From Chroococcidiopsis thermalis PCC 7203 (GTDB lineage Bacteria; Cyanobacteriota; Cyanobacteriia; Cyanobacteriales; Chroococcidiopsidaceae), in the NCBI RefSeq assembly GCF_000317125.1, contig NC_019695.1, forward strand, positions 6,064,336 through 6,128,335: 64,000 bases of DNA. The letters are read 5' to 3'. Numbering within the stretch: the stretch's first letter is position 1; each line of letters starts with the position of its first letter. The position numbers were made by a program, and so were the translations under genes. The notes under the pieces are model-generated. The model searched no databases. It was not told where the DNA came from and was given only the letters and a program-made list of their open reading frames with translations. Positions 44,161-57,727 of this stretch are shown piece by piece.

Positions 44161-44877
44161 ATGCATTCCCCATCCGCTTCTCCAGAGTCGCAAAGACCAT
44201 TTTTAACCTGGCAACGGATTCTTGACTGGGCGCAGGAACACTATCGCGTTCGCTCTTTTAGTAAAGACGAACGCATTCCAGCTCGACCTGGACTGCTCTA
44301 TCTCGTTCAAAGAGGTGCTGTGCGACTTGTAGGTACAGCTCAAGTTAGCGCAACTAGTCAGCTATCATCTCGGCGCATCAACAGAACACCTGAAGAAGCT
44401 TTTTTAGGCTTTGTTGGCGCTGGACAGCCGTTTGAAATTGTTGCCCAATCTCCGTTTACGCTCCAAGCTTATGCCCACGTAGAACCCACTTTAGTCGTGT
44501 GGATGTACTGGCATGACTTGGATAACTGGCCCCACTTTCGGCGGGAAGTTCTCGATGCATTTCGCTACCAACATCAGCGCAAGTTACTGTGGCTGAGTGC
44601 TTTAGGACAGCGACGGACGATCGATCGTCTCTTGGGATTCTTAACCCTGCTGGTAGAAGAATACGGACAACCAGCGACAAGTGAAGAAGATCCCGAGATT
44701 CTGCGCGGATACTCTCTACCGTTTACGCTGACGCACGCCCAAATTGGTAGTGCGATCGGTTCGACGCGAGTTACGGTGACTCGTTTAATGGGTAAGTTAC
44801 GCCAACGCGGTTTACTTATCGCCCAAGAAGATAATCTCATCTGTTTGCCAGCCGATTCAATCAATCGAGCTAGTTGA
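44161..44877 (+). CDS. Crp/Fnr-family transcription regulator (DevH-like)
   Basis: A 238-residue DNA-binding regulator with an N-terminal cyclic-nucleotide-binding-like fold (LYLVQRGAVRLVGTAQVSAT) and a C-terminal winged helix. The recognition helix region LTHAQIGSAIGSTRVTVTRL is shared with NtcA. The overall sequence differs clearly from NtcA, and I associate it from memory with the DevH type. The effector-binding arginine of CRP is not evident. Gene order supports DevH: the order devH, LysR, ndhF, ndhD is known in a heterocystous relative, and those genes follow here over 18 kb. A 16-bp inverted repeat follows the stop. Confidence 0.75.
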   Translation: MHSPSASPESQRPFLTWQRILDWAQEHYRVRSFSKDERIPARPGLLYLVQRGAVRLVGTAQVSATSQLSSRRINRTPEEAFLGFVGAGQPFEIVAQSPFTLQAYAHVEPTLVVWMYWHDLDNWPHFRREVLDAFRYQHQRKLLWLSALGQRRTIDRLLGFLTLLVEEYGQPATSEEDPEILRGYSLPFTLTHAQIGSAIGSTRVTVTRLMGKLRQRGLLIAQEDNLICLPADSINRAS

Positions 44878-44918: not shown

Positions 44919-45986
44919 CTAGCGCATTCGCACAAATCCAGCGTTAGCGATCGCCGACTGTCCTTGCTGCGTCAGCAGTAATTTAGCATAAGCTTCTCCT
45001 GCTTGCTGTGCTAAATCGTCATCTTGCTTGACGACAACGTACAGGTTACGTGTCAGAGGATATTGTCCGGTTTGAAAAGCATCTGTATTGAGCTGATTGC
45101 GCCGCTGAGGACAGTTATTCGCTGTTACTAAAGGTTCTTGGTAGGGAGGAGTAAATTGCCCTGATTGACGACCTAGCGGTAAGGGTCTAATCCTACACTG
45201 AGGTACGATTTCTGGAGCCGAGGCGTAGTAAATTCCGCCACGGTTACTAGCTAGCTTTTGTAGAGCTTGAGTTGTCGTACCGACAAATTCAACATTAGCA
45301 GCTAATGCTTGACCTGCTAAAACATCCTGTACGAAAAGCTCGACCGTACCACCCTCGCTCATCGGACGAGAATAAGGTTGAATCGGCAGGTTAGGACCAC
45401 CGAGTTGTTTCCAGTTATTTGCCTTACCCGTGTAAATTGCTTGCAGCTGTGCCAAGGTTAGTCCTGGTATATTTAGGCTGGGGTGAACTGCGATCGCTAA
45501 ACCATCAATTGCTACCGGAATTTCTTTTAAATTAAATCCTCTTTGCTGAGCGCGGGATACCTCTTGATCTTGTAAGGGTCGAGACGACTGAGCAAAGGTA
45601 AGCCTACCTTCAATCAGCATCCGAATACCAATACTAGTTCCTGGGGAAGCATTTGTCGGTTCTACAAATCGTAACTGAAATTCTGGATAAGCTGCCCTAA
45701 TTTGCGGATCGATCGCTTGTCGAATTGCTGCCCAAGAAGTACTACCACCATAGCTGAATAACCCTTTAGGAATGCCTGAAACACCGCTAAAACTTGAGCC
45801 AGTCAATTCTGGATCTGAAGTTATATCGGATGTGTTGGGGGTGGAAATAGATCTTGGCTGAGGATCGCTGAGTTCGACACTAGTGCTAGAATTTCTCGTC
45901 AGCCACCAAAAACCACCAGCTAAACCCCCAGCTACGATCAATAGAGTCAGAACGAGAACAGCTGTTTCATTTTTTTGCGACGACAT
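44919..45986 (-). CDS. anchored PstS-like phosphate-binding protein
   Basis: A periplasmic type II solute-binding protein of the PstS family. From the ATG at 45986 it has 355 residues. An N-terminal membrane anchor (MSSQKNETAVLVLTLLIVAG) precedes a serine-rich linker and two lobes with GLFSYGGSTSWAAIRQAID, RLTFAQSSRPLQDQE and YTGKANNWKQLGG. The frame reaches to 46067, but the extra residues are cysteine-rich and lack a ribosome-binding site. No phosphate permease or ATPase gene is near. The anchor matches that of the binding protein at 52292-53713, so these are modular relatives. Phosphate as ligand is inferred. Confidence 0.82.
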   Translation of the reverse strand: MSSQKNETAVLVLTLLIVAGGLAGGFWWLTRNSSTSVELSDPQPRSISTPNTSDITSDPELTGSSFSGVSGIPKGLFSYGGSTSWAAIRQAIDPQIRAAYPEFQLRFVEPTNASPGTSIGIRMLIEGRLTFAQSSRPLQDQEVSRAQQRGFNLKEIPVAIDGLAIAVHPSLNIPGLTLAQLQAIYTGKANNWKQLGGPNLPIQPYSRPMSEGGTVELFVQDVLAGQALAANVEFVGTTTQALQKLASNRGGIYYASAPEIVPQCRIRPLPLGRQSGQFTPPYQEPLVTANNCPQRRNQLNTDAFQTGQYPLTRNLYVVVKQDDDLAQQAGEAYAKLLLTQQGQSAIANAGFVRMR

Positions 45987-46353
45987 AACAGAATGATAAG
46001 TGCTGTAATAAGTGCAACATATACTTGCTTGCGTACAGATTATCCCCGCAGCAAAGCAGTGTTGCATCCCTGTGAGATCGCCTCTAATTCAAGCGATCGT
46101 CCTATGATGAAATCAAAGTACTTAAGTTAAGTGTTTTGCTCTCAGTAATCCTATGAATTAAACTCTTATGTCTGTTTTATCATAACCTAACCTTAATCTT
46201 GTCAGGACGATTAACTATATATATTTAGCGGCTTTTGGCACAAATAGTATACACACAACTACATAAAGTCACGATCGTTGGTCATGAGAATAGGGGTAAG
46301 GGTAAGAATTTCTTACTTACGACTTACGAATTACAAATTACGACTTATTTAAC

Positions 46354-46770
46354 CTAGTGATTAGAGTGTCTGAAAAGATCGTCGCAGTAAAATAACCAAG
46401 CTATACCCAAAATAGCTGTAGTTACGCTAGCAATTATCCCCGCTATAACCCAGCCGAATGCTCCTACTAATATAATTAATCTTCCTAGTAAAGCTAAAAC
46501 TGCTTTCGCCGTAATGAATGCAGTAACGGCAGAAATTATACTAATCAGTCCTAATTCTAAAAGTATAGATTTAGTATCCTTAGTTGCTAGTTCCTCATCA
46601 AAGTATATATCCCAGACAACAGTACACATAGCAACATCAGCAACCGTCAAAAATATTTGCTTGAATAATTCTAAATTTATTGCAGGAGTTACTGTGACTA
46701 TCCCCGCAGCAAAAATTGTAGCTAAAATTACTATAACGGCTCGTTTTCTTTTTAGATAGATCTGACTCAT
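46354..46770 (-). CDS. small multi-pass membrane protein, unknown
   Basis: A 138-residue hydrophobic protein with about four membrane segments (AVIVILATIFAAGIVTV, IFLTVADVAMCTVVW, LLELGLISIISAVTAF and LIILVGAFGWVIAGIIASV) and a charged loop in the middle. I recognise no family. It has its own start after an A/T-rich leader. The 286 bases beyond it, up to the phosphate-binding gene, hold no recognised element. Confidence 0.6.
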   Translation of the reverse strand: MSQIYLKRKRAVIVILATIFAAGIVTVTPAINLELFKQIFLTVADVAMCTVVWDIYFDEELATKDTKSILLELGLISIISAVTAFITAKAVLALLGRLIILVGAFGWVIAGIIASVTTAILGIAWLFYCDDLFRHSNH

Positions 46771-46859
46771 AATTAATTTCCTGAATCACAAGCTTTTTAA
46801 TAAAGAAGAGTCAGAAGTGGATATAGCAATTCTAAATGAATCGTGAAATCGATTGTTCC

Positions 46860-46889
46860 TGTAGAGACGTTACATGTAACGTCTCTACA
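46860..46889. repeat. 30-bp perfect palindrome, GAGACGTTAC family
   Basis: TGTAGAGACGTTACA plus its reverse complement, followed by an extra half copy (GGAACGTCTCTACAGG). Confidence 0.9.
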
Positions 46890-47056
46890 CACATGGAACG
46901 TCTCTACAGGGAAAACGTTCACAAATCAATTTGGATTGCTATATTAGTTTTTATACCAACAAAATCAACATTTTACATCAGAAAAGTTTTTGATTTCGTA
47001 GCATTAATTGCAGCTTTTTCACAATTAATTTTCTAACTTCTGCCTCCTTCTACAGA

Positions 47057-47821
47057 TTACAACCAGTGTTTTGGATAAGTTCTACCTGGCATGAGATTGT
47101 TAAAAACAAAAGTACAAAAGACTAAAACAATTGAACCTGCTAATACTGGCGTGAATAGAAAACTCCATTCAGCACGGCTCATCACTCCTACTAAAGCAAC
47201 TGCTCCTCCTGGTGGATGGAGAGTTTTTGTCAGTTGCATGACTTTGATTGCTGTAGCAACAGCTAAAGCCATTACCCAAGGTTCTGAGCCGAATAAATGT
47301 ACCATAATTAAGCTGACTAATCCGCCGAGAAAATTGCCTACAATACAGTTGCGTGGCTGTGCTAGAGGACTATCGGGTGCAGCAAATAATAAAACGGCAG
47401 CCGCTCCGAAAGGAGCTGCGATTAGAGGATAATGCGTACTAACGCTGATGTAAGCTAGCGCGGCAATGCCAATAAAACTACCTATGTAAGAAAAAACAAT
47501 TTGTTTTAAAGGAAAGCGGGGTTGATATTTAGAGCTGCCGTGAATTTTAGCCAAGAAGTTTTTGAGTCGAGCCGATTTAAATCGAAAGCTCCATGTAGAC
47601 TGGGAACGATTTTTTCTCAAAGCAGCTAGTTCAGATGTGAGTTGCTCTAGTTGTTGCTGCTGAATGATTAATTGCTGTTGCTGTTGTTCTAGTTGCTGTT
47701 GATACTGCTGGAATTGTTGTTGTTTGCTTGTCAACTCAAAGGTGGACATAGCTTTGGTAAGTTTTGTCATAGAGCTAGTATTTGTATTTGGTTTCGCCGC
47801 AGTTTTACTAATGTCTTTCAT
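47057..47821 (-). CDS. HPP-family transporter, probable nitrite uptake
   Basis: A membrane protein with four helices carrying the family signature HPP (TLHPPGGAVALVGVMSRAEW). HPP proteins of cyanobacteria and chloroplasts have been reported to transport nitrite. The N-terminal 70 residues are a glutamine-rich coiled coil (QQQFQQYQQQLEQQQQQLII) not needed in the family. The frame reaches to 47965, but the NtcA-type box at 47977-47990 and its promoter would start transcription inside that region. I therefore take ATG 47821 (MKDISKTAAK). Later methionines are also possible. The start is uncertain, the family is not. Confidence 0.82.
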   Translation of the reverse strand: MKDISKTAAKPNTNTSSMTKLTKAMSTFELTSKQQQFQQYQQQLEQQQQQLIIQQQQLEQLTSELAALRKNRSQSTWSFRFKSARLKNFLAKIHGSSKYQPRFPLKQIVFSYIGSFIGIAALAYISVSTHYPLIAAPFGAAAVLLFAAPDSPLAQPRNCIVGNFLGGLVSLIMVHLFGSEPWVMALAVATAIKVMQLTKTLHPPGGAVALVGVMSRAEWSFLFTPVLAGSIVLVFCTFVFNNLMPGRTYPKHWL

Positions 47822-47965
47822 ACTTCGATCGCTAAATAATGAATTGCAAAAACTTAGATTAATTCTGTGATATTGCGATCGCACTACTATAAATTGTGTT
47901 AACTGATACGGAATATTATTACTCATGAAAGAAGCGCATTTTGAAATTGCTCTAACCGCATACAA

Positions 47966-48663
47966 TCAACGAAAAAGTACTATTTTATACTTGCAACTTA
48001 GAGCAAACTACGCTCGCAATAACGCTAGAACTATCAAATAAATTAAATGGATAAATTAATTTTTTCAAAAAATATTGACAGCGATCGCTAGCTACTAGAG
48101 CAATCCTATTTGATTCATGAATGTGGAGCAGGCTAGAAGCCTACTTTACAAATCATTTAGAACTGCTATAGCTCGCTCAAATATTTATCGCTGTATAACT
48201 ATATTTAATTATTGTAGTTAAAATCTGACAAGACATTTCAGACTCGATCGAAGTGTTCTTTGTTTATTCGATGGTATTCAAAGTTTTTATTTCAAGAGAG
48301 TTAATCTTGTATTTTAATTTTATTCATCAAAATTTTAATTGCTCTTAGTGTTATGGAATAGCTTTGAGATTTATCGTATTTTTACTGTAACTTTGGTTGC
48401 AGCATTTTTGCTGCACGGTTGAGTAAAATCTGAAGATTAGCTTTTTAGCTTCTGTGCCTCTGCATGGAAATGCTAGTAAAGCCATAAATTGTGACTTGAT
48501 ACAGAGGCAAATTTGTTTGTTGGGTTAGTTTTAATTGTTACGTAATGAGAGCTTAATTTGTTACGCAATAGTAGCGAAACTAAACCAAGCGATCGCGATT
48601 TAACTTGAAACTGTGGTTGTTGAATTGCTAATTCATGGGTGCTGTTGAGATAGAACGAAACTG
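47966..48663. other. intergenic region, mostly empty
   Basis: A 698-base AT-rich space between divergent HPP (-) and AEC-family (+) genes. It holds the NtcA-type box at 47977-47990. No frame, repeat or RNA gene was recognised in the rest. Confidence 0.5.
47977..47990 (-). promoter_or_regulatory. NtcA-type box upstream of HPP transporter
   Basis: The minus strand reads GTATAAAATAGTAC, an exact GTA-N8-TAC. After 22 bases comes TAGAGC, one base off the TAN3T -10 pattern. The site alone can occur by chance about sixteen times in 64 kb. Its place before a likely nitrite transporter makes it worth testing. Confidence 0.5.
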
Positions 48664-49626
48664 ATGATAGAAATTACAGCAAGCGTTTTTTGTACGAGTC
48701 TGGGCGCATTCTTATTCAGAAGAGAAATAATTCCTCGTTCCTTTCCCAATTTGCTAGGTCGCCTTCTTTACTGGCTGGGCGTACCTTTGCAAATTTTAGT
48801 ACTGACGCGCAAGTCAAATTTATCGCAATCGATTTGGTTGCCCCCAATCTTGACAATTGCAACATTGCTTTTGGGTTTGGGCTTAGCTTATGTCAGTTTA
48901 CAGCTACTCAAACAACTGACTCAGTACCGCTCGGTTTCATGGGTAAAACAATTGTCCGATAGTTTTTATCCTAGCGATCGCGCTGAACAAGGTAGTTTTG
49001 TCCTCGCTTCAATTTTGGGAAACACCGGCTTCATCGGGTTAGCGATCGTTCCAGCTTTTGTCAGTCAAGACTATTTAGTTTGGGTAGTGTTGTATGGCGT
49101 AACGCACAATCTAATTGGTAGTTACGGACTGGGAGTATTTTTAGCAAGTTATTTTGGGCAAACCACAGCAAATAATAAATGGAAAGCTGCATGGCGAGAC
49201 ATTTTGCGCGTTCCTGCTTTATGGGCGTTTGCGCTGGGTTACTATAGTAAACCTTGGCAAATTGTCAGTTTCATCGATCCCTTACTTCAAGCAATAGTCT
49301 ATTTAGTCATACCTGGAGCTTTTTTGTTGATTGGAATGCAATTATCACGGCTTCAAGGAATTGAAAATCTACGAGGGGCGATCGTTCCCAGTACGATCAA
49401 GACATTTGTTCTGCCCATTTTGGCAGGAATGGTAATAACATGCTTGGGATTTCCCCACGAAGCACGCTTGGCTTTAGTCTTGATGTCTGGAATGCCAAGT
49501 GCTTTCGCCAATGCGATTTTAGCAGAAGAGTACAACCTCAATCGTCCGCTAGCTGCCAGTACGATTGTTCTCAGTACGGTTTTGCTACCACTGGTACTTC
49601 CCCTATGGTTGTATTTATTTAGATAA
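48664..49626 (+). CDS. AEC-family transporter
   Basis: A 320-residue membrane protein with about ten helices of the auxin efflux carrier superfamily. Members export auxin-like acids, malate or malonate. The typical positions are VPAFVSQDYLVWVVLYGVTH in the first half and GMPSAFANAILAEEYNLNRP near the end. The substrate is unknown. It is alone on its strand and converges on the binding-protein gene. Confidence 0.82.
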   Translation: MIEITASVFCTSLGAFLFRREIIPRSFPNLLGRLLYWLGVPLQILVLTRKSNLSQSIWLPPILTIATLLLGLGLAYVSLQLLKQLTQYRSVSWVKQLSDSFYPSDRAEQGSFVLASILGNTGFIGLAIVPAFVSQDYLVWVVLYGVTHNLIGSYGLGVFLASYFGQTTANNKWKAAWRDILRVPALWAFALGYYSKPWQIVSFIDPLLQAIVYLVIPGAFLLIGMQLSRLQGIENLRGAIVPSTIKTFVLPILAGMVITCLGFPHEARLALVLMSGMPSAFANAILAEEYNLNRPLAASTIVLSTVLLPLVLPLWLYLFR

Positions 49627-49665
49627 TAGAGACTCTGCGTGGAACTTCTCTGCGTCGTCTCTCGA

Positions 49666-51108
49666 TCAACGAAGGCTCGTGTCAACCGAACTAGGTAGGG
49701 GAGTAAAATCGTAACCAGTGCCGGAGTATCTACCAGGCTGAACTCTGACTAGAGTTCCTGATTCTTGGCGATCGCCTGACGGTAAAAACTTGACTATCCC
49801 AGTTGCCCCTTTAAACATAAAACCAGTATTAGATAAAGCTTTCTGTAGCTGTTCGCGATTCGTACTCGCTTTTAAACCCGTGAAAACAGCAATTGTTGCA
49901 TCGTAAGTCAATGCAGTTCGCCAATTACCAGCCCCACCCCAAAACCGCTTAGCATTGGCAATGAAAGAACTATTGGGGAAAGCAGAAGGATGCCAAGGTA
50001 CAGAAAGCACCATAGTATTAACATCAGCTTGTCCTTGCTGCAACGTGTCGTACGTATACATTGTGTGGCTGCCGAACAAAGTCAATCGACTGCGATTTGC
50101 TTGCGCTACTTCCACTGCACGACCCATTCTATTTACATCTGGTGCTAGCAGCAAAGCTTCTGCTCCATCGCTGACTGCTTGAGAGGGAATTTCGCTAGGG
50201 TTAAAATTAGTAGCAGCAAAATCGCAGGGGGTACTGGTGATATAACCGCCATTTTCAAACACGCTAGAAGTGAACTCCTCTTGAAACGAGCGACTTGCTT
50301 CTGCCTGAGAATCCGCACAGATCGCAATTCTGGTTTTGCGTGCTGTTTTCACGACGTAGCTAGCCAAAGCATCGGCGATTGCTCTTGAATTTGGCGTAGT
50401 CCGAAAGATAAATCTCCCAACTCCACTTAAGTTACGCGCTACGCTCGTGGGCGAGATCATCACCAAACCGCTTTTTTGATAGATGGGAGCAGCGGCGATG
50501 GATGCATCACTAGAGTTATGTCCTACTACTGCGAGAATATCTGGATCGTTGGCAAATTCAGCCGCGATTTGTTTGGCAACAATGGGGTTATTATCGTCGT
50601 TGGCAACTTGCACTTGAACCAGCTTGCCGCCAATCCCGCCACCGTGATTAATTTCGTATTGTGCCTGTGCCACGCCCCGCAGCATCTCTCTGGCAACGTT
50701 TAAGTTACCTCCTACAGGAACGCTAACACCGATCTTAACTGTATTGCTAATTGCAGCTGCCGAAGCATTATTTAAATAAATCCACGTTTCGGGATCGTTG
50801 CGCTTCACCTGCAAAGCCGCATTAAATTTGGTGACTGCCGTGGAAAAATCTCCTGCGGCAAAAGCTTGTACCCCTGCTTGTTTGTCTGGATTATTGTCGG
50901 CAGTAAATAAAACTTTATTACCTAAACTAATTCGTTTTTGCAAAGCTGGGTTGCGGTTGGGGGGATTGAGCAATCCATTGAGAGATGGTTGAGTTGCTTG
51001 TTGCCCTCCTCTACCACTGCGATAACTCAACCAAAAAATTAGCGGACCGATCAAGCAGAGGGCGATGAGATAGAGAACCAGGACAGTGTTTTTTTTGCTT
51101 TGCAACAT
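49666..51108 (-). CDS. anchored type I solute-binding protein with TPR-like head
   Basis: 480 residues. An N-terminal membrane anchor (KKNTVLVLYLIALCLIGPLI) is followed by a linker. Then come a short tetratricopeptide-like unit (GDFSTAVTKFNAALQVKRND, PETWIYLNNA) and a Peripla_BP_6-type domain like the branched-chain amino-acid binding proteins (VKIGVSVPVGGNLNVAREML, GVAQAQYEINHGGGIGGKL). It is a clear paralogue of the protein at 52292-53713. No ABC permease or ATPase lies nearby, so it may be a sensor or an orphan receptor. It lies with mgtC and a Ser/Thr kinase gene on the same strand. Confidence 0.85.
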   Translation of the reverse strand: MLQSKKNTVLVLYLIALCLIGPLIFWLSYRSGRGGQQATQPSLNGLLNPPNRNPALQKRISLGNKVLFTADNNPDKQAGVQAFAAGDFSTAVTKFNAALQVKRNDPETWIYLNNASAAAISNTVKIGVSVPVGGNLNVAREMLRGVAQAQYEINHGGGIGGKLVQVQVANDDNNPIVAKQIAAEFANDPDILAVVGHNSSDASIAAAPIYQKSGLVMISPTSVARNLSGVGRFIFRTTPNSRAIADALASYVVKTARKTRIAICADSQAEASRSFQEEFTSSVFENGGYITSTPCDFAATNFNPSEIPSQAVSDGAEALLLAPDVNRMGRAVEVAQANRSRLTLFGSHTMYTYDTLQQGQADVNTMVLSVPWHPSAFPNSSFIANAKRFWGGAGNWRTALTYDATIAVFTGLKASTNREQLQKALSNTGFMFKGATGIVKFLPSGDRQESGTLVRVQPGRYSGTGYDFTPLPSSVDTSLR

Positions 51109-51538
51109 AAAGTTTGGAACAGGAGTTTAATCGAGTATTGTAGACATGTCTAGACAACTTTCCCAGCCTCATATTTTCTTCATCGCCATGACTTAGTACA
51201 ACCCAGATGTCGAAGAATCTATAAGGATCTAAATCATATTCTTTTTAGCAACAGCACTTTGGGCGATCGCAATAATAGTACGAGATGAATACCCACAAAC
51301 AAAGCTACAGCTTGAAAGTTGGTTTTTTTAACATATAAATAAATAATATTTGATTTGACCCATAACCAAACAAAATAGAGCCACAACTACTTGCGTACCA
51401 ACCGTAATTTTACGGAAAAAATATAATGCAGCTGATTTTAACCGTGAAATTACTTACGCAAATTTACTGAGTCTAAGCCTATACGTATAAGAGATTTACC
51501 TAACTATAGCAGTAAAGAGTTTGGCGATCGCGCTCCGC
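51109..51538. other. intergenic region, one small palindrome
   Basis: A 430-base AT-rich gap between two minus-strand genes. A 12-bp palindrome TAGACATGTCTA lies near 51142-51153, just upstream of the anchored binding-protein gene. No coding frame was recognised. The gap argues that the two genes are separately transcribed. Confidence 0.5.
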
Positions 51539-52261
51539 TCAATCTGTATCTTCTGTAACTACTTCCCACTTAATTGCAGTCACTTTTATTTGCGATCGCA
51601 ACTGCATGACAATCTCTTCCATCAACAGATCGTTGCGACCATTGGAAGTATATTCTGCCTTGATTTCTACTGAAGAGAAGTTATCGAGATCTTTACTGTT
51701 AATATTTTTACTAGACAATTCATTCAATATCATTTGTCCTGGTGTGGTTTGTGCCAGTAGCACAGCCCTCACAGCTACTTCGTCTTCAGTTAAACAAATG
51801 AGGCGACAGCAATAGCGAGTTTCTGCTTTTGTGTGCGTAATCAATTGCTCGTCTAACTGCTGAAACCACTGTACCATCGGGCGCAAAAGTAGATTTGCTC
51901 CTACCACTGCTAAAGTGCCGAAATAAGCTTGAAATAGCAATCCCGCCCCGACCAAACTACCCACGGCAGCAGCACACCAGAGGGTAGCTGCGGTATTGAG
52001 TCCGCGCACGCTGGTTCCTTCCCGCAAAATTACACCGCCACCCAAAAAGCCAATGCCAGAGACAACTTGGGCTGCTATACGTGTAGGACTGGCATCGCCG
52101 GGAATCATTGCCGAGAGCATGACGAACATAGCAGCACCAAGAGACACCAACACATTTGTTTTCAGTACCGAGCGAGTTCGCCGCCATTGTCTTTCGCTGC
52201 CAATTGCCGCACCGAGAATGAATGCCAGTAGCAGGCGAATTGCAAAATCTACCCAAGTCAT
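51539..52261 (-). CDS. mgtC: MgtC/SapB-family membrane protein
   Basis: A 240-residue protein with four N-terminal helices and a soluble C-terminal part. The family signatures are IGSERQWRRTRS, DASPTRIAAQVVSGIGFLGG and REGTSVRGLNTAATLWCAAA. MgtC proteins respond to low magnesium and in some bacteria modulate ATP synthase or phosphate uptake. The C-terminal domain has an ACT-like character. The gene starts 30 bases downstream of the SBP gene at 52292-53713, so the two are probably co-transcribed. Confidence 0.88.
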   Translation of the reverse strand: MTWVDFAIRLLLAFILGAAIGSERQWRRTRSVLKTNVLVSLGAAMFVMLSAMIPGDASPTRIAAQVVSGIGFLGGGVILREGTSVRGLNTAATLWCAAAVGSLVGAGLLFQAYFGTLAVVGANLLLRPMVQWFQQLDEQLITHTKAETRYCCRLICLTEDEVAVRAVLLAQTTPGQMILNELSSKNINSKDLDNFSSVEIKAEYTSNGRNDLLMEEIVMQLRSQIKVTAIKWEVVTEDTD

Positions 52262-52291
52262 TGTTTTTTTCGTTTGGTTGCACCCAAATTG

Positions 52292-53713
52292 CTATTGTCG
52301 CACTGGTACGAAATCATAGCCAGTACTTGTATTGACTTGACGCACGACTTGTACTAGCTGCACTGGTGCGTTACTATCGCCAGAGGGAAGAAACTGCACT
52401 GGATTAGCTGCGCCAGGAGTGGAAAAATCATTACTAGTCAGAGTTTGTTGAATCCCTTCACGAGTAGGAGACTTCTGCATTGCCGCAGTCAAAGCCTTGG
52501 TTGCATTGTAGGCAAGAGCAGTACGCCAGTTGACCTCAGCTCCCCAAAACTGTCGTGACTGACGCACGAACTGAGATTTCGGATCGGTATCAATATCCCA
52601 CGGAATAGCAACTACCATATTCACAGCCGCGTCTCCTGCGACCTCTAGCGTGGTTGAGTTGTAAATGGCATCACCACCTAGAAGTTGCAATCGTCTGCGG
52701 TTGACTTGCACGACCTGTAGGGCTTTATCGATAATGCTAGTACTAGACCCAGTATTAGGTGCTAACATCAGGACTTTTGCCCCTTGCTTGATGGCTTGGT
52801 TAATGCTGTTAGCTGGGCTAAAACTAGGGTCTGATAAGTCAAACTCAGATGTGACTTTTCCACCTCCGAGTAGAACCGCTGTGACAAACTCAGATTTTAA
52901 GGATTGGCTGTAAGCACTTTGGGGATTGAAAAAAACAGCAGCATTCTTTTGCTGTAAATTGGTCAGCATATAATTTGCCAAAGCTCTTGCAGCAATATAA
53001 TCGCTGGGAACGGTACGAAAAATGTAGGGACTGATGCCGGAAAGTTTAACAGAAGTACTGACAGGAGAGATCGCGACTAACTTTCCCTCATCATATATAG
53101 GTGCAACGGCAAGGGTGACTTGACTTGCCCAGTGACCGATAACTGCCAAAATTTCAGAAGTGTTGACCAAAGTTGAAGCAACTTGTTGAGCTTGGTCTTC
53201 TTGATTGTTGTCGTTGACGATCGCCACTTTCAAGGGAACACCATTAATATTCCCCGTTTGATTTGTTTCGGTCTGTGCCTGCGCAACGCCACGTAGAACT
53301 TCCAAACTTCCATTAGGACTAGTACCAGTGGGAACGACAACAGCAATTGCGTAGCTTTTGCGATCGCCTATCTTGGCATTGTTAAGGAAAATTAGGGTTT
53401 CGGGATCGTTGCGATTTTGTGTTAATGCTACTTGCAATTTCTCGATTGCAACACTCCAATTTCGAGCCGCGATCGCCTCTATTCCTTCCTGTTTTGCTGG
53501 TAATATCTTCCCTGAAAATAACGTTTTCTCACCAAAACTAATTGGTTTTCCAGTTGCAGAAGTACCATCTGTAGGAGTCGAGTTAGATTGATTTCCAATA
53601 CCGACAAACGATTTGCCAAAAAAATTACTGAATAGTAAAGCTCCTCCCCCTACTAATCCGAGCGTAATTAGTAGCGATAGTAGCAGAAGCACTGTTTCAT
53701 TTTTACGCGACAT
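52292..53713 (-). CDS. anchored type I solute-binding protein, paralogue
   Basis: 473 residues with the anchor MSRKNETVLLLLSLLITLGL, a glycine/serine linker, a TPR-like unit (RNWSVAIEKLQVALTQNRND, PETLIFLNNA) and a Peripla_BP_6-type domain. The anchor is shared with the PstS-like protein (44919-45986), and the rest is shared with the 49666-51108 protein. The ligand is unknown. It has no transporter partner. It lies between mgtC and a Ser/Thr protein kinase, with only tandem repeats (53755-53812) separating it from the kinase gene. Confidence 0.85.
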   Translation of the reverse strand: MSRKNETVLLLLSLLITLGLVGGGALLFSNFFGKSFVGIGNQSNSTPTDGTSATGKPISFGEKTLFSGKILPAKQEGIEAIAARNWSVAIEKLQVALTQNRNDPETLIFLNNAKIGDRKSYAIAVVVPTGTSPNGSLEVLRGVAQAQTETNQTGNINGVPLKVAIVNDNNQEDQAQQVASTLVNTSEILAVIGHWASQVTLAVAPIYDEGKLVAISPVSTSVKLSGISPYIFRTVPSDYIAARALANYMLTNLQQKNAAVFFNPQSAYSQSLKSEFVTAVLLGGGKVTSEFDLSDPSFSPANSINQAIKQGAKVLMLAPNTGSSTSIIDKALQVVQVNRRRLQLLGGDAIYNSTTLEVAGDAAVNMVVAIPWDIDTDPKSQFVRQSRQFWGAEVNWRTALAYNATKALTAAMQKSPTREGIQQTLTSNDFSTPGAANPVQFLPSGDSNAPVQLVQVVRQVNTSTGYDFVPVRQ

Positions 53714-53754
53714 ATTAGAACTAGGGAGTAGGGAGTGGGGAGTAGGGAGTAGGG

Positions 53755-53812
53755 GAAGACAAGGGGGACAAGGGAGACAAGGGAGAGGGGGGAGACAAGG
53801 GAGACAAGGAGA
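53755..53812. repeat. tandem GACAAGGGG-type repeat, intergenic
   Basis: Several units of GACAAGGGA or GACAAGGGG before the anchored binding-protein gene, with GTCACTGGTCA repeats following. Confidence 0.88.
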
Positions 53813-53942
53813 AGTCGTAAGTCAGAAGTGATGATTAACTGATAACTGGTCAGGAGTCACTGGTCACTGGTCAGGAGTCACTGTCACCCCACACCCTACA
53901 CCCTTTCTTCACTGATAACTGATAACTGATAACTGATAACTG

Positions 53943-55301
53943 TCACAGAATTCGATCGAGTAGTTGATAAATTATTTTAAATAAAGCTGTGAGGGCAACT
54001 GCAATTAGTCCGCCACCGATCGCCAGAACCAAAATGCTAGAAACGCTGAGATTGGCGTGCAGGGCAGGAATAAAAACCACAACTACCAAGGAAATTACTG
54101 AAATAATTAATAAATCTACTTTTTCGATCCAGCGACGAGATAAGGCAAAAACTAGACCGCTCAAAATCACAGCGGCGATTGCCCAACCAAGAGCGGGAGT
54201 GGGAAAAAGGCTGGAAAGCGCGATCGCCAGCAAAGCACCTTCAAAACCGCTAAAAGCCGCTCCCGTTAAAACCTCCCACAGAGCAAAACTAGGTCGCCTG
54301 GTTATTGGTGGGGGAGTAGATGGTATAGGGGTGGGGCGATCGAGCTGGTGCAGAGCGGTAAGGACTTCGGCAGCTGACTGATAGCGCTGCTGGGGTTGAG
54401 CTGATAGCATCTTGGTCAGAATGCTGGCAAGCTCACTGCTAACTTCAACATGCATTCGCCAATGCCATTGATTGCGACCGGCATCATATAAATCTGTAGG
54501 TTTTTTGCCAGTGAGTAGGTTGACTGCGGTTACAGCCAAGGCATACAAGTCCGTAGAAGGGTAAACTTCCCCACCTGAGACTTGTTCGGGAGGGGCAAAA
54601 CCCATAGAATAAATTCCGGTCGAAGCAGATTGCGCTCCTCCTGCTTGGCTCGTCACTTGTTTGACCGCACCAAAATCGAGTAAGTAAAGCTTACCGTGGC
54701 GATCGCGGATGATATTAGAAGGTTTGATATCCCGATGAATCGCTTTTTGTTCGTGAACGAACTGTAAAACGGGTAAAATGGCGTAGAGCAGTTGCAAGAC
54801 CTGCGATTCGGAGAACCGACCTTGAGATTCTAGTTCTGCTTCTAGAGTTTCACCGTCGATAAACTCTTGAACGAGATAAAAAAAACGTTCCTGTTTATTG
54901 GGTTGCCAACTCGGGACGCTCAATTCAAAAAAAGCCAACAAATCGGGGATTTGGTCGTGGCGATCGCCGAGTTGTTCTAAGGCGACTGCTTCCCGTTCAA
55001 ATAGGGTTTGGGCAGTCATCAGCTGAGTCGCGCTCAAGTCACCAGAAGGCTTGAATTGCTTCACGACACACTGACGCATCCCAGGCGTGTAGCGATCGCG
55101 TGCCAAAAAAGCCGCACCAAATCCCCCTTGTCCTAGTAGTTTTACCGGTAGATAGCGCCCCTGTAAAATTAGCGGCATACCGCAACAGGTGCAATACTTT
55201 TGTTCTGTTGTTTTGAGAATGGCGCTGTTATCGAGATCGGTAAAATGATTGAGCGGACGGGGACAGCCTAAACGAGTGCAGAAAACTTCCATGAACGGCA
55301 A
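53943..55301 (-). CDS. Ser/Thr protein kinase with membrane tail
   Basis: 452 residues. An N-terminal zinc-ribbon-like part (C8, C13, C37 and C40) leads into a eukaryotic-type kinase domain. The glycine loop is GQGGFGAAFLA, the ATP lysine is K81 (VVKQF), the catalytic loop is HRDIKPSN and the magnesium loop is DFGAVKQ. After a linker, four hydrophobic helices form the C-terminus (about 330-450). This domain order is common in cyanobacterial kinases. It lies just upstream of an anchored binding-protein gene and mgtC on the same strand. That location may reflect a shared signalling task, which is inference. Confidence 0.9.
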   Translation of the reverse strand: MPFMEVFCTRLGCPRPLNHFTDLDNSAILKTTEQKYCTCCGMPLILQGRYLPVKLLGQGGFGAAFLARDRYTPGMRQCVVKQFKPSGDLSATQLMTAQTLFEREAVALEQLGDRHDQIPDLLAFFELSVPSWQPNKQERFFYLVQEFIDGETLEAELESQGRFSESQVLQLLYAILPVLQFVHEQKAIHRDIKPSNIIRDRHGKLYLLDFGAVKQVTSQAGGAQSASTGIYSMGFAPPEQVSGGEVYPSTDLYALAVTAVNLLTGKKPTDLYDAGRNQWHWRMHVEVSSELASILTKMLSAQPQQRYQSAAEVLTALHQLDRPTPIPSTPPPITRRPSFALWEVLTGAAFSGFEGALLAIALSSLFPTPALGWAIAAVILSGLVFALSRRWIEKVDLLIISVISLVVVVFIPALHANLSVSSILVLAIGGGLIAVALTALFKIIYQLLDRIL

Positions 55302-55432: not shown

Positions 55433-56440
55433 TCAATTCACTTCCTCGACCTCTGGCGTTACGACTTCTATAGTTTCCTTGGCAACTCGCGGCGACTCTA
55501 ACAGTTCCTTGCCCCAACCTGGAGTTGTAAATTGGGGTAAAATCTCGCGGATAAACGCATCAGCTGCTTTCGAGCGATAACGGTTGGGGTTTAAAATTGC
55601 TGCTAGCGTCCGTCGCACCACGACTCCCTCAATTGCAGAGCGGTGCAAGATACCCATTTGTAGCTCTTTGGCGATCGCAGAGACGGAAACAAAAGCCGCT
55701 CCTAACCCTGACTGCACGGCGTTTTTAATTGCCTCAATTGAATTGAGTTCCATTTCAATTTTGAGTCGTCGCGTATCGATCTCGCAGCGAGTTAATACAG
55801 AGTCAATGACTTTGCGAATGGTCGATTGGGAATCGAGAGCGATGAACTGAAGTTTATAGAGGTCGTCTTTATAGATTTTCTCGGCTTTTGCTAAGGGGTG
55901 CAGCACTGGTAATATCAGGGCTAGCTCATCTTCGGCGTAAGGAGCGATCTGTAAAGATTCATGTAACTCTGAGGGAATTTCGCCACCGATGATCGCTAAG
56001 TCTACCTGTCCGTTTGCCACGCTCCAAGCAGTGCGCCGAGTTGAGTGGACGTGCAACTGTACCGCGACATCAGGATATTTTTGCCGAAACATGCCGATCA
56101 TGCGCGGTAAAAGGTACGTGCCAGTAGTTTGAGAAGCACCGACAATCAGAGTTCCGCCTTGAAGGTTTTGCAGATCCTCAATTGCCCGACAGGTTTCTTG
56201 ACAGAGGCTGAGAATTTTTTCGCCATAGTTGAGCAGCAAATACCCTGCTTCTGTCAGTTGCGCTCTACGTCCGCCTCGGTCGAATAAAGGCACGTCCAAT
56301 TGCCGCTCTAAGTTTTGCACCTGCAAGCTCACCGCAGGTTGAGAGACATAAAGACTGTCAGCGGCACGCTTGAAGCTCCCTTCAGCAGCGATCGCTTTAA
56401 GAATGCGTAACTGATCTAAGGTGAAAGGTAGGTCAGACAT
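55433..56440 (-). CDS. rbcR: LysR-type regulator RbcR
   Basis: A 335-residue LysR-family regulator. Residues 1-65 form the winged helix ([20 protein letters not shown]), followed by an effector-binding fold. The sequence matches RbcR (the chloroplast Ycf30 relative), which activates Rubisco genes, more than CmpR or NdhR. The frame extends to 56479, but [20 protein letters not shown] at 56440 is the usual N-terminus. An IS630-type element lies immediately upstream (56565-57727) and may have displaced the promoter. Its place beside ndhF-ndhD is conserved in related genomes. Confidence 0.85.
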
Positions 56441-56564
56441 ACAGCTATATCCATGAATACGAAAGGAGACTTCAGGCAACCTACTCGATTAGTGAGAGAG
56501 CGCGAATGTGTCATCTGCTCAAAGTGGGAAACATTCCGCGAAAATGACCCTAACACCACATTAA

Positions 56565-57727
56565 TATATAGCGAGTCTAAGCGAATCGTGAAAAAGCATC
56601 GTAGTTGCTAAAATTTGGAAGATTAAAGAGTTTTAAGTCAACAAAAAGCTGAAATAAACGTTTGACGCTCTTAAAACTTTTTCCAAAACGATAAAATCTT
56701 CTCAGGAGAGTTTTCAGTTGTAACCAAATAGCTTCGACCGGATTCTCTTGAGGGGCATAAGGGGCAAATCGGACACAAGTAATTTGCCAATTTTCAGGAA
56801 GAAGCCCTTCATTTTGTTCGGTGAGAAAATCCCTCATTACTTGCCCTCGATGATAAGAGGCTCCATCCCAAATTAATAAAATTCTGGCTTGTGGATGTTT
56901 ACCTAGTAATTTTTTGACGAATTCTACTGTTAGTTCTCCATTTGCTGTTGGCTCAGGAACCAAAGTAAACTCTTGAGTAAATAGCTCTAGCGCACCATAA
57001 TAAGTTTGCCGTTCCTTGGGATTGAGGATTGGGATTTTTAAAGGATTTTTTACGAAGTTCCAAAGATAGCCAACCAGATCGTTCCAGAGAAGATGACATT
57101 CATCTATGATATACACAACTAGCTCTTCAGCTTCAATCTGGGGTCGATACTTCTCTAGTAACTCGGCAATTTCTCGGTTTTTTTTGTAGATCGCTTCTGG
57201 GTCTTGACGTGGACTGGTTTGTTCTCCTTTTTGCCACGTAATTCGCGCTTCTTTCAACAGTTGATAATAACTTTGTCGCGATTGAAAAACTATATCGTAC
57301 TGCTCGATTAGATACACCTCTAAGTCTGAAATATCCCAAGTTTTTTGTTCGACCAGCCACTGAATTACCGCTTGCCTTTCAATTTGAGTTAAGTAACCTT
57401 TTCCTCCTTGATACGAAGACCTTAACGCAGCTAATCCACCAGACTCGAAAGCTTGTTTCCATTTGCTAATAAATCCTACAGAAACTTCTAAGATTTGGCT
57501 AATTTGTCGATATACATAACCTTCCATAGCTAGCTTCACAGCTAAAGCTCTTCTCATCTCTTTTTCATTTGGGTGACTTTGAATGAAATCTTTTAAGAGT
57601 TGAATTTGTTGTGTTTTGGTTAGAGAAGTCGGATTCACGCTAGTTTTCATCAGCCTCTGACATCTAGAGCTTCATTCTACCTACTTATCTCCAATTTTGT
57701 TCATAACTTGTTTAGACTCGCTATATA
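56565..57727. mobile_element. intact IS630-type insertion sequence
   Basis: A 16-bp perfect inverted repeat, TATATAGCGAGTCTAA (56565-56580 and 57712-57727), brackets one transposase gene. The outer TA pairs are the probable duplicated target, as IS630 inserts into TA. The transposase stop lies within the left repeat. There is no HIP1 site within the element. The perfect ends and open frame suggest a recent arrival between rbcR and the nnrU-like gene. Confidence 0.88.
56577..57650 (-). CDS. IS630-family transposase
   Basis: The transposase of the element, 357 residues in one frame. The N-terminal helix-turn-helix region shows GYVYRQISQILEVSVGFISK, and a second HTH follows. The DDE catalytic domain has the aspartate in YIIDECHLLW, the second in LLIWDGASYH and the glutamate in QENPVEAIWLQLK. 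The frame is unbroken and full length for the family, so the protein could be active. Other copies outside the window cannot be judged. Confidence 0.93.
   Translation of the reverse strand: MKTSVNPTSLTKTQQIQLLKDFIQSHPNEKEMRRALAVKLAMEGYVYRQISQILEVSVGFISKWKQAFESGGLAALRSSYQGGKGYLTQIERQAVIQWLVEQKTWDISDLEVYLIEQYDIVFQSRQSYYQLLKEARITWQKGEQTSPRQDPEAIYKKNREIAELLEKYRPQIEAEELVVYIIDECHLLWNDLVGYLWNFVKNPLKIPILNPKERQTYYGALELFTQEFTLVPEPTANGELTVEFVKKLLGKHPQARILLIWDGASYHRGQVMRDFLTEQNEGLLPENWQITCVRFAPYAPQENPVEAIWLQLKTLLRRFYRFGKSFKSVKRLFQLFVDLKLFNLPNFSNYDAFSRFA

Follow-up and report, generated by a model that had tools for sequence, protein, structure and literature searches.

The Hanks-type Ser/Thr kinase (KIN) and two binding proteins of unrelated folds encoded in the window, i.e., the whole stretch of 64,000 nucleotides analysed here, quite likely constitute a split sensory receptor, the separate chains of which would dock through a common transmembrane (TM) tag called the KNET anchor. 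The domain content of these proteins fits such a role, the anchor is shared by both folds, the genes stand in a conserved cluster, anchor and kinase co-occur across genomes, and relatives carry the same receptor parts in natural fusions.

The source genome, of 6.69 Mb, is distributed over three contigs. On the minus strand of the window, a LysR regulator gene (55433..56479) is followed by KIN (53943..55301), SBP2 (52292..53713), mgtC (51539..52261), SBP1 (49666..51108) and, farther on, the gene of a PstS-fold protein (44919..46067), with a convergent transporter gene, an HPP-family gene and a small ORF lying between the last two. The LysR gene, which we take from its context to be RbcR-like, adjoins the kinase upstream and is a conserved neighbour found in 78/80 related loci. 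The opposite end of the cluster is marked by a Crp-family regulator gene on the plus strand (44161..44877), which faces the PstS-fold gene, and this convergent flank is conserved in 60/80 loci. The preliminary description of this DNA had listed one PstS-like and two Peripla_BP_6-like binding proteins, with a Ser/Thr kinase alongside and mgtC in between, and all of them are recovered by Pfam at the expected positions (PBP_like_2, 7.7e-29; Peripla_BP_6, 1e-32 for SBP1 and 3.8e-39 for SBP2; Pkinase, 1.7e-35; MgtC, 4.6e-35). It had also noted that no ATPase gene lies nearby, in agreement with a motif scan of the window that detected no ABC ATPase-like ORF. The DNA between the kinase and SBP2 (53720-53930) is repetitive, with TCAGTTATCAGTTATC and CTCCCTTGTCTCC runs, and a transposase-like gene is inserted upstream of the LysR gene (56577-57650). 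Rfam and tRNA scans gave no matches.

KIN, the likely ATG start of which is at 55292, begins with a 4-Cys prefix (NCBIfam 4Cys_prefix_kin, 33 bits for a cutoff of 24). Its catalytic core is complete, including the glycine loop, the VxK lysine and the HRDxKxxN, DFG and APE-type motifs, which are invariant or almost invariant across an alignment of 27 orthologs. The kinase had been described as membrane-tailed, and this tail (model residues 338-448; 53949..54281, minus strand) is modelled by AlphaFold (AF2) as four C-terminal helices, with a pLDDT of 75 overall and about 74-87 in the tail, in agreement with hydropathy. It is the proposed docking site of the anchor. Because the loops between the helices are short, KIN is devoid of an ectodomain of its own for sensing the outside. 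A reading of KIN as part of a defence system was considered following its PADLOC match (PD-T4-6). This match was discarded as evidence, since it is generic to kinase domains and the binding proteins of the window have none.

SBP2 is composed of a TM anchor, a TPR-like unit and a Peripla_BP_6 domain. Its AF2 model (pLDDT 88) displays a TM helix at residues 4-31, three helices at residues 72-115, followed by a type I binding-protein fold, and its top Foldseek matches are solved Leu- and Ala-bound binding proteins; Pfam, AF2 and Foldseek alike give it the type I fold of ABC binding proteins. The TPR-like unit that had been placed between anchor and binding domain is borne out by the model helices and by TPR Pfam matches in homologous fused proteins (residues 58-116; 53366..53542, minus strand). 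Four residues, S197, T220, Y268 and D348, are conserved in 22-23/23 orthologs, and three of the four differ in SBP1. By their motif, they are presumably amino-acid contacts of the LivJ/mGluR type (Ser/Thr, Tyr, Asp/Glu), and the ligand of SBP2 is probably an amino acid. The PstS-fold protein, whose start homologous to that of its relatives is the Met at 45986, has an ABC binding-protein fold through its PBP_like_2 domain (Pfam). It stands far under the NCBIfam cutoffs for PstS (130 bits vs 206.6 for TIGR02136 and 28 vs 205 for TIGR00975). It retains GST, SR, D and R..GT elements, with a Gly in place of the expected Ser of the SGT motif, and its ligand may be phosphate or another oxyanion. Elsewhere in the same genome (1.754-1.757 Mb; L008, L009), two adjoining PstS-type proteins display a zinc-ribbon-like CxxC motif N-terminal of the TM segment.

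Despite their unrelated folds, SBP2 and the PstS-fold protein have in common an N-terminal TM segment, MSQKNET..LxLSLLITxGLxGGGxWWF, located on the minus strand at 53621..53713 in SBP2 (residues 1-31) and at 45897..45986 in the PstS-fold protein. Both are TM anchors without a lipobox cysteine. A profile was built exclusively from PstS-fold anchors of other genomes and searched against 700 ORFs. It matched SBP2 of the window with an E value of 6e-14, the PstS-fold protein of the window with 1.4e-13 and most SBP2 anchors with about 1e-12 to 7e-21, with weaker scores for a few that are divergent; no other convincing match was found among the 700 ORFs, the closest being a 190-aa ORF at 0.003. Exactly two proteins of the source genome carry the KNET anchor, namely SBP2 and the PstS-fold protein, which is far above chance. 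The anchor is present in 77/100 genomes of the order, mostly in reading frames that span about 300-390 or 450-560 aa. Inspection of 30 anchor loci revealed 29 binding proteins, i.e., 18 of PstS-A, six of SBP2 and five of PstS-B type. An example of this third, PstS-B type (L110:6533-7438) adjoins the kinase, and its ectodomain is closely homologous to that of Sll0540 of Synechocystis (E 5e-78), a protein of solved structure from a model strain (PDB 9l8j) for which no function was found in the literature searched.

Related anchors had initially been attributed to all three binding proteins. The relation holds for SBP2 and the PstS-fold protein and fails for SBP1, the KKNT anchor of which is unrelated and reaches an E value of only 1.7 with the profile, i.e., background. 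SBP1 is a stand-alone protein made of a TM segment, a TPR unit and a Peripla_BP_6 domain, with V, A and H where SBP2 has T220, Y268 and D348. Its ectodomain is nearest to those of fused CHAT/AAA/caspase receptors (42-50% identity). SBP1 was thus rejected as a third member on both anchor and ligand motif, and its sequence probably places it outside the kinase system. In another locus (L052, 1450-4347), an SBP1-like gene directly precedes a different kinase gene, and therefore SBP1 may have another partner. As for mgtC, it is absent from 80/80 related kinase loci and is therefore regarded as an incidental, lineage-specific local insertion rather than as a part of the system.

The association of the kinase with anchored binding proteins extends well beyond this genome. 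The order LysR-KIN-[PstS]-SBP2-[PstS]-Crp recurs in relatives, most of which have the LysR gene and KIN followed by one to four anchored binding proteins, often with a convergent Crp gene at the end. Among 80 named loci retrieved by the kinase, 77 include enough downstream sequence; one to four same-strand binding proteins are encoded downstream of KIN in 71 of these 77, and the KNET anchor is found on 127 of these 133 proteins. Of 134 anchor ORFs, 69 are found no farther than 12 kb from the kinase, for about 0.6 expected. The co-occurrence of anchor and kinase, which had been proposed as a check, was assessed in 100 genomes: 73 have both, 19 have neither, four have the anchor only and four the kinase only. 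Presence or absence thus agrees in 92/100 genomes, with eight discordant (Fisher p 5e-13, without phylogenetic correction), and in several families, such as f2, f5, f6 and f11, genomes possessing both coexist with genomes possessing neither. In a wider sample of the phylum, an anchored-type binding protein is encoded no more than 16 kb away from 39/75 kinase orthologs, on the same strand every time; about half of the orthologs have none within this distance, many of them having one elsewhere. The linkage is therefore not universal, unrelated genes following the kinase in several loci. In a mirror-tree test, the covariation of the anchor with the kinase tail beyond that with the catalytic domain is weak (partial r 0.18, p 0.02).

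Besides the split arrangement, the receptor parts are found naturally fused to effectors. In nine loci (L047-L051, L053, L054, L057, L059), a related Hanks kinase is continued in the same chain by the TPR-Peripla_BP_6 part, and in L247 a related kinase precedes the PstS-type part in this way (40% for each of the two halves). The same membrane-spanning parts are also carried by effectors with caspase (L055, L056, L058), CHAT (L060, L052) or AAA/STAND-like domains (L053, L062, L065), and a PstS-type part stands behind a CHAT domain in L245. These cytoplasmic partners are familiar from cell-death and conflict systems. In nearly all of the 24 fused proteins, exactly one TM segment is predicted, between the parts, and the KNET profile matches none of the 24. 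TM likeness is 21% at the best shift for the fused kinases vs 51% for the stand-alone anchors, the fused ectodomains being at 41%. Judged from these sequences, the KNET anchor goes with effectors and receptors made as two chains and is dispensable where both are parts of a single one. This restriction to split receptors is the strongest hint that the anchor may replace a covalent linkage. Other architectures were encountered in the course of this survey. Two proteins (L007:1495-3489 and L248:2132-3982, both minus strand) have an uncharacterised N-terminal domain of ~290 aa, without Pfam match, connected by one TM segment to a PstS-type domain, and the gene adjoining the former encodes a DO-GTPase2-like protein. 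In the source genome, a TPR-Peripla_BP_6 protein encoded at 1.525 Mb (L003) has not one but three N-terminal TM segments.

The binding proteins of the window could alternatively be orphan uptake proteins feeding permeases encoded elsewhere (Nat/Liv-type or Pst), with the kinase as a linked regulator of uptake. Cyanobacterial Nat genes are often unlinked, and other regions of the genome contain eight matches to BPD_transp_2 permeases, although nothing speaks in favour of their use by these proteins. However, the genome possesses separate binding proteins for transport, namely UrtA, whose gene adjoins that of a permease, a Peripla_BP_6 protein resembling a lipoprotein (L014) and three transport-type PstS, one of which stands beside a PstA-like permease gene. 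Moreover, the cluster goes with the kinase and not with ABC genes, ABC ATPase-like ORFs occurring within 10 kb in only 2/80 related loci, and the same ectodomains are joined to kinase, CHAT and caspase domains but not to transport parts. A role in uptake is thus unlikely. The earlier idea that tethered binding proteins work for a kinase rather than for a transporter is retained for SBP2 and the PstS-fold protein, on the grounds of gene order, co-occurrence, anchor, fusions and the scarcity of ABC genes, and is given up for SBP1 and mgtC.

The conservation of the anchor itself also has to be explained. In alignments, its identity is 51-56% within classes and 48% between folds, compared to 57-60% for the folded domains, and drops to 13-19% in the linker of 25-35 residues directly behind it. 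Because the anchor stays near the conservation of the folded domains while the linker diverges, the TM sequence itself is under selection. Such a conserved sequence could serve localisation, as a sorting or retention signal for a membrane region, the kinase being linked for other reasons, and binding-protein copies unlinked to the kinase do retain the anchor. But a signal of this kind is hard to reconcile with an anchor that tracks one kinase family in all but eight of the 100 genomes and that fused receptors with the same ectodomains do not need, and we give this explanation a low probability too. Still more improbable is that the anchor is a relic of domain shuffling among neighbour genes within a hitch-hiking neighbourhood: anchors are slightly more alike within one locus (54%) than between loci (48%), but their conservation across many genera next to a divergent linker and their retention by unlinked copies argue against it.

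If the kinase and its anchored partners form a split receptor, each binding protein would be exposed in the periplasm and held by its own single TM helix, and the common anchor would dock on the four-TM tail of the kinase. Thanks to this anchor, several receptors with different ligands could be served by one kinase. Closure of a binding protein onto its ligand would alter the packing of the TM helices and thereby change, in one direction or the other, the activity of the cytoplasmic kinase towards its putative substrates. We give even chances to the broader view of a plug-in system, in which one four-TM kinase reads several tagged binding proteins differing in fold and ligand, and in which placing the tag on a new domain would add a sense.

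Several known systems resemble this arrangement. In XylFII-LytS, a membrane-tethered binding protein reports one ligand to a histidine kinase and not to a permease, and to our knowledge no shared anchor family is involved. The window similarly pairs tethered binding proteins with a kinase and not with a permease, its kinase being of the Ser/Thr type. A close counterpart in Actinobacteria is GlnH-GlnX-PknG, where a periplasmic binding protein is linked to a Ser/Thr kinase via a four-TM membrane protein (PMC9769921), and binding proteins acting on Ser/Thr kinases have been reviewed in an article that also cites XylFII-LytS (PMC9602780). The system proposed here differs in that GlnH is a lipoprotein, whereas SBP2 and the PstS-fold protein carry their own TM anchors, and in that GlnX is a protein in its own right and has two periplasmic domains, whereas the four TM helices of the window belong to the kinase and include no sizeable periplasmic domain. 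In cyanobacteria, fusions of Ser/Thr kinases to the same type of binding domain were catalogued in 2007 as cbSTKII-ANF, e.g., alr0344, Ava_2791 and CwatDRAFT_0902 (PMC2176072). These are single chains, as are the fused relatives found here, with one non-conserved TM segment, whereas the kinase and binding proteins of the window are encoded by separate genes, so that they are not one-polypeptide receptors of this kind; the split system combines ectodomains of two folds with a dedicated common anchor. Eight orthocaspase-Peripla_BP_6 proteins have also been listed (PMC8283722). Like L055, L056 and L058, they join a cytoplasmic effector to a binding domain of this type, the effector being a fused caspase-like protease and not a kinase. 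The initial suggestion that a kinase informed by binding proteins would be new was therefore too strong, given GlnH-GlnX-PknG and the kinase-ANF fusions. What is new here is the common anchor together with the conserved split cluster, of which no account was found in the literature searched.

Most cyanobacterial Ser/Thr kinases still lack a known input, and one widespread family of these kinases now gains candidate extracellular inputs. A wider family also comes to light, whose members have these receptor parts mounted on kinase, caspase, CHAT and STAND-like domains. If the proposed mechanism is true, it would reveal how a single kinase can accept binding folds unrelated to each other by means of a simple docking element.
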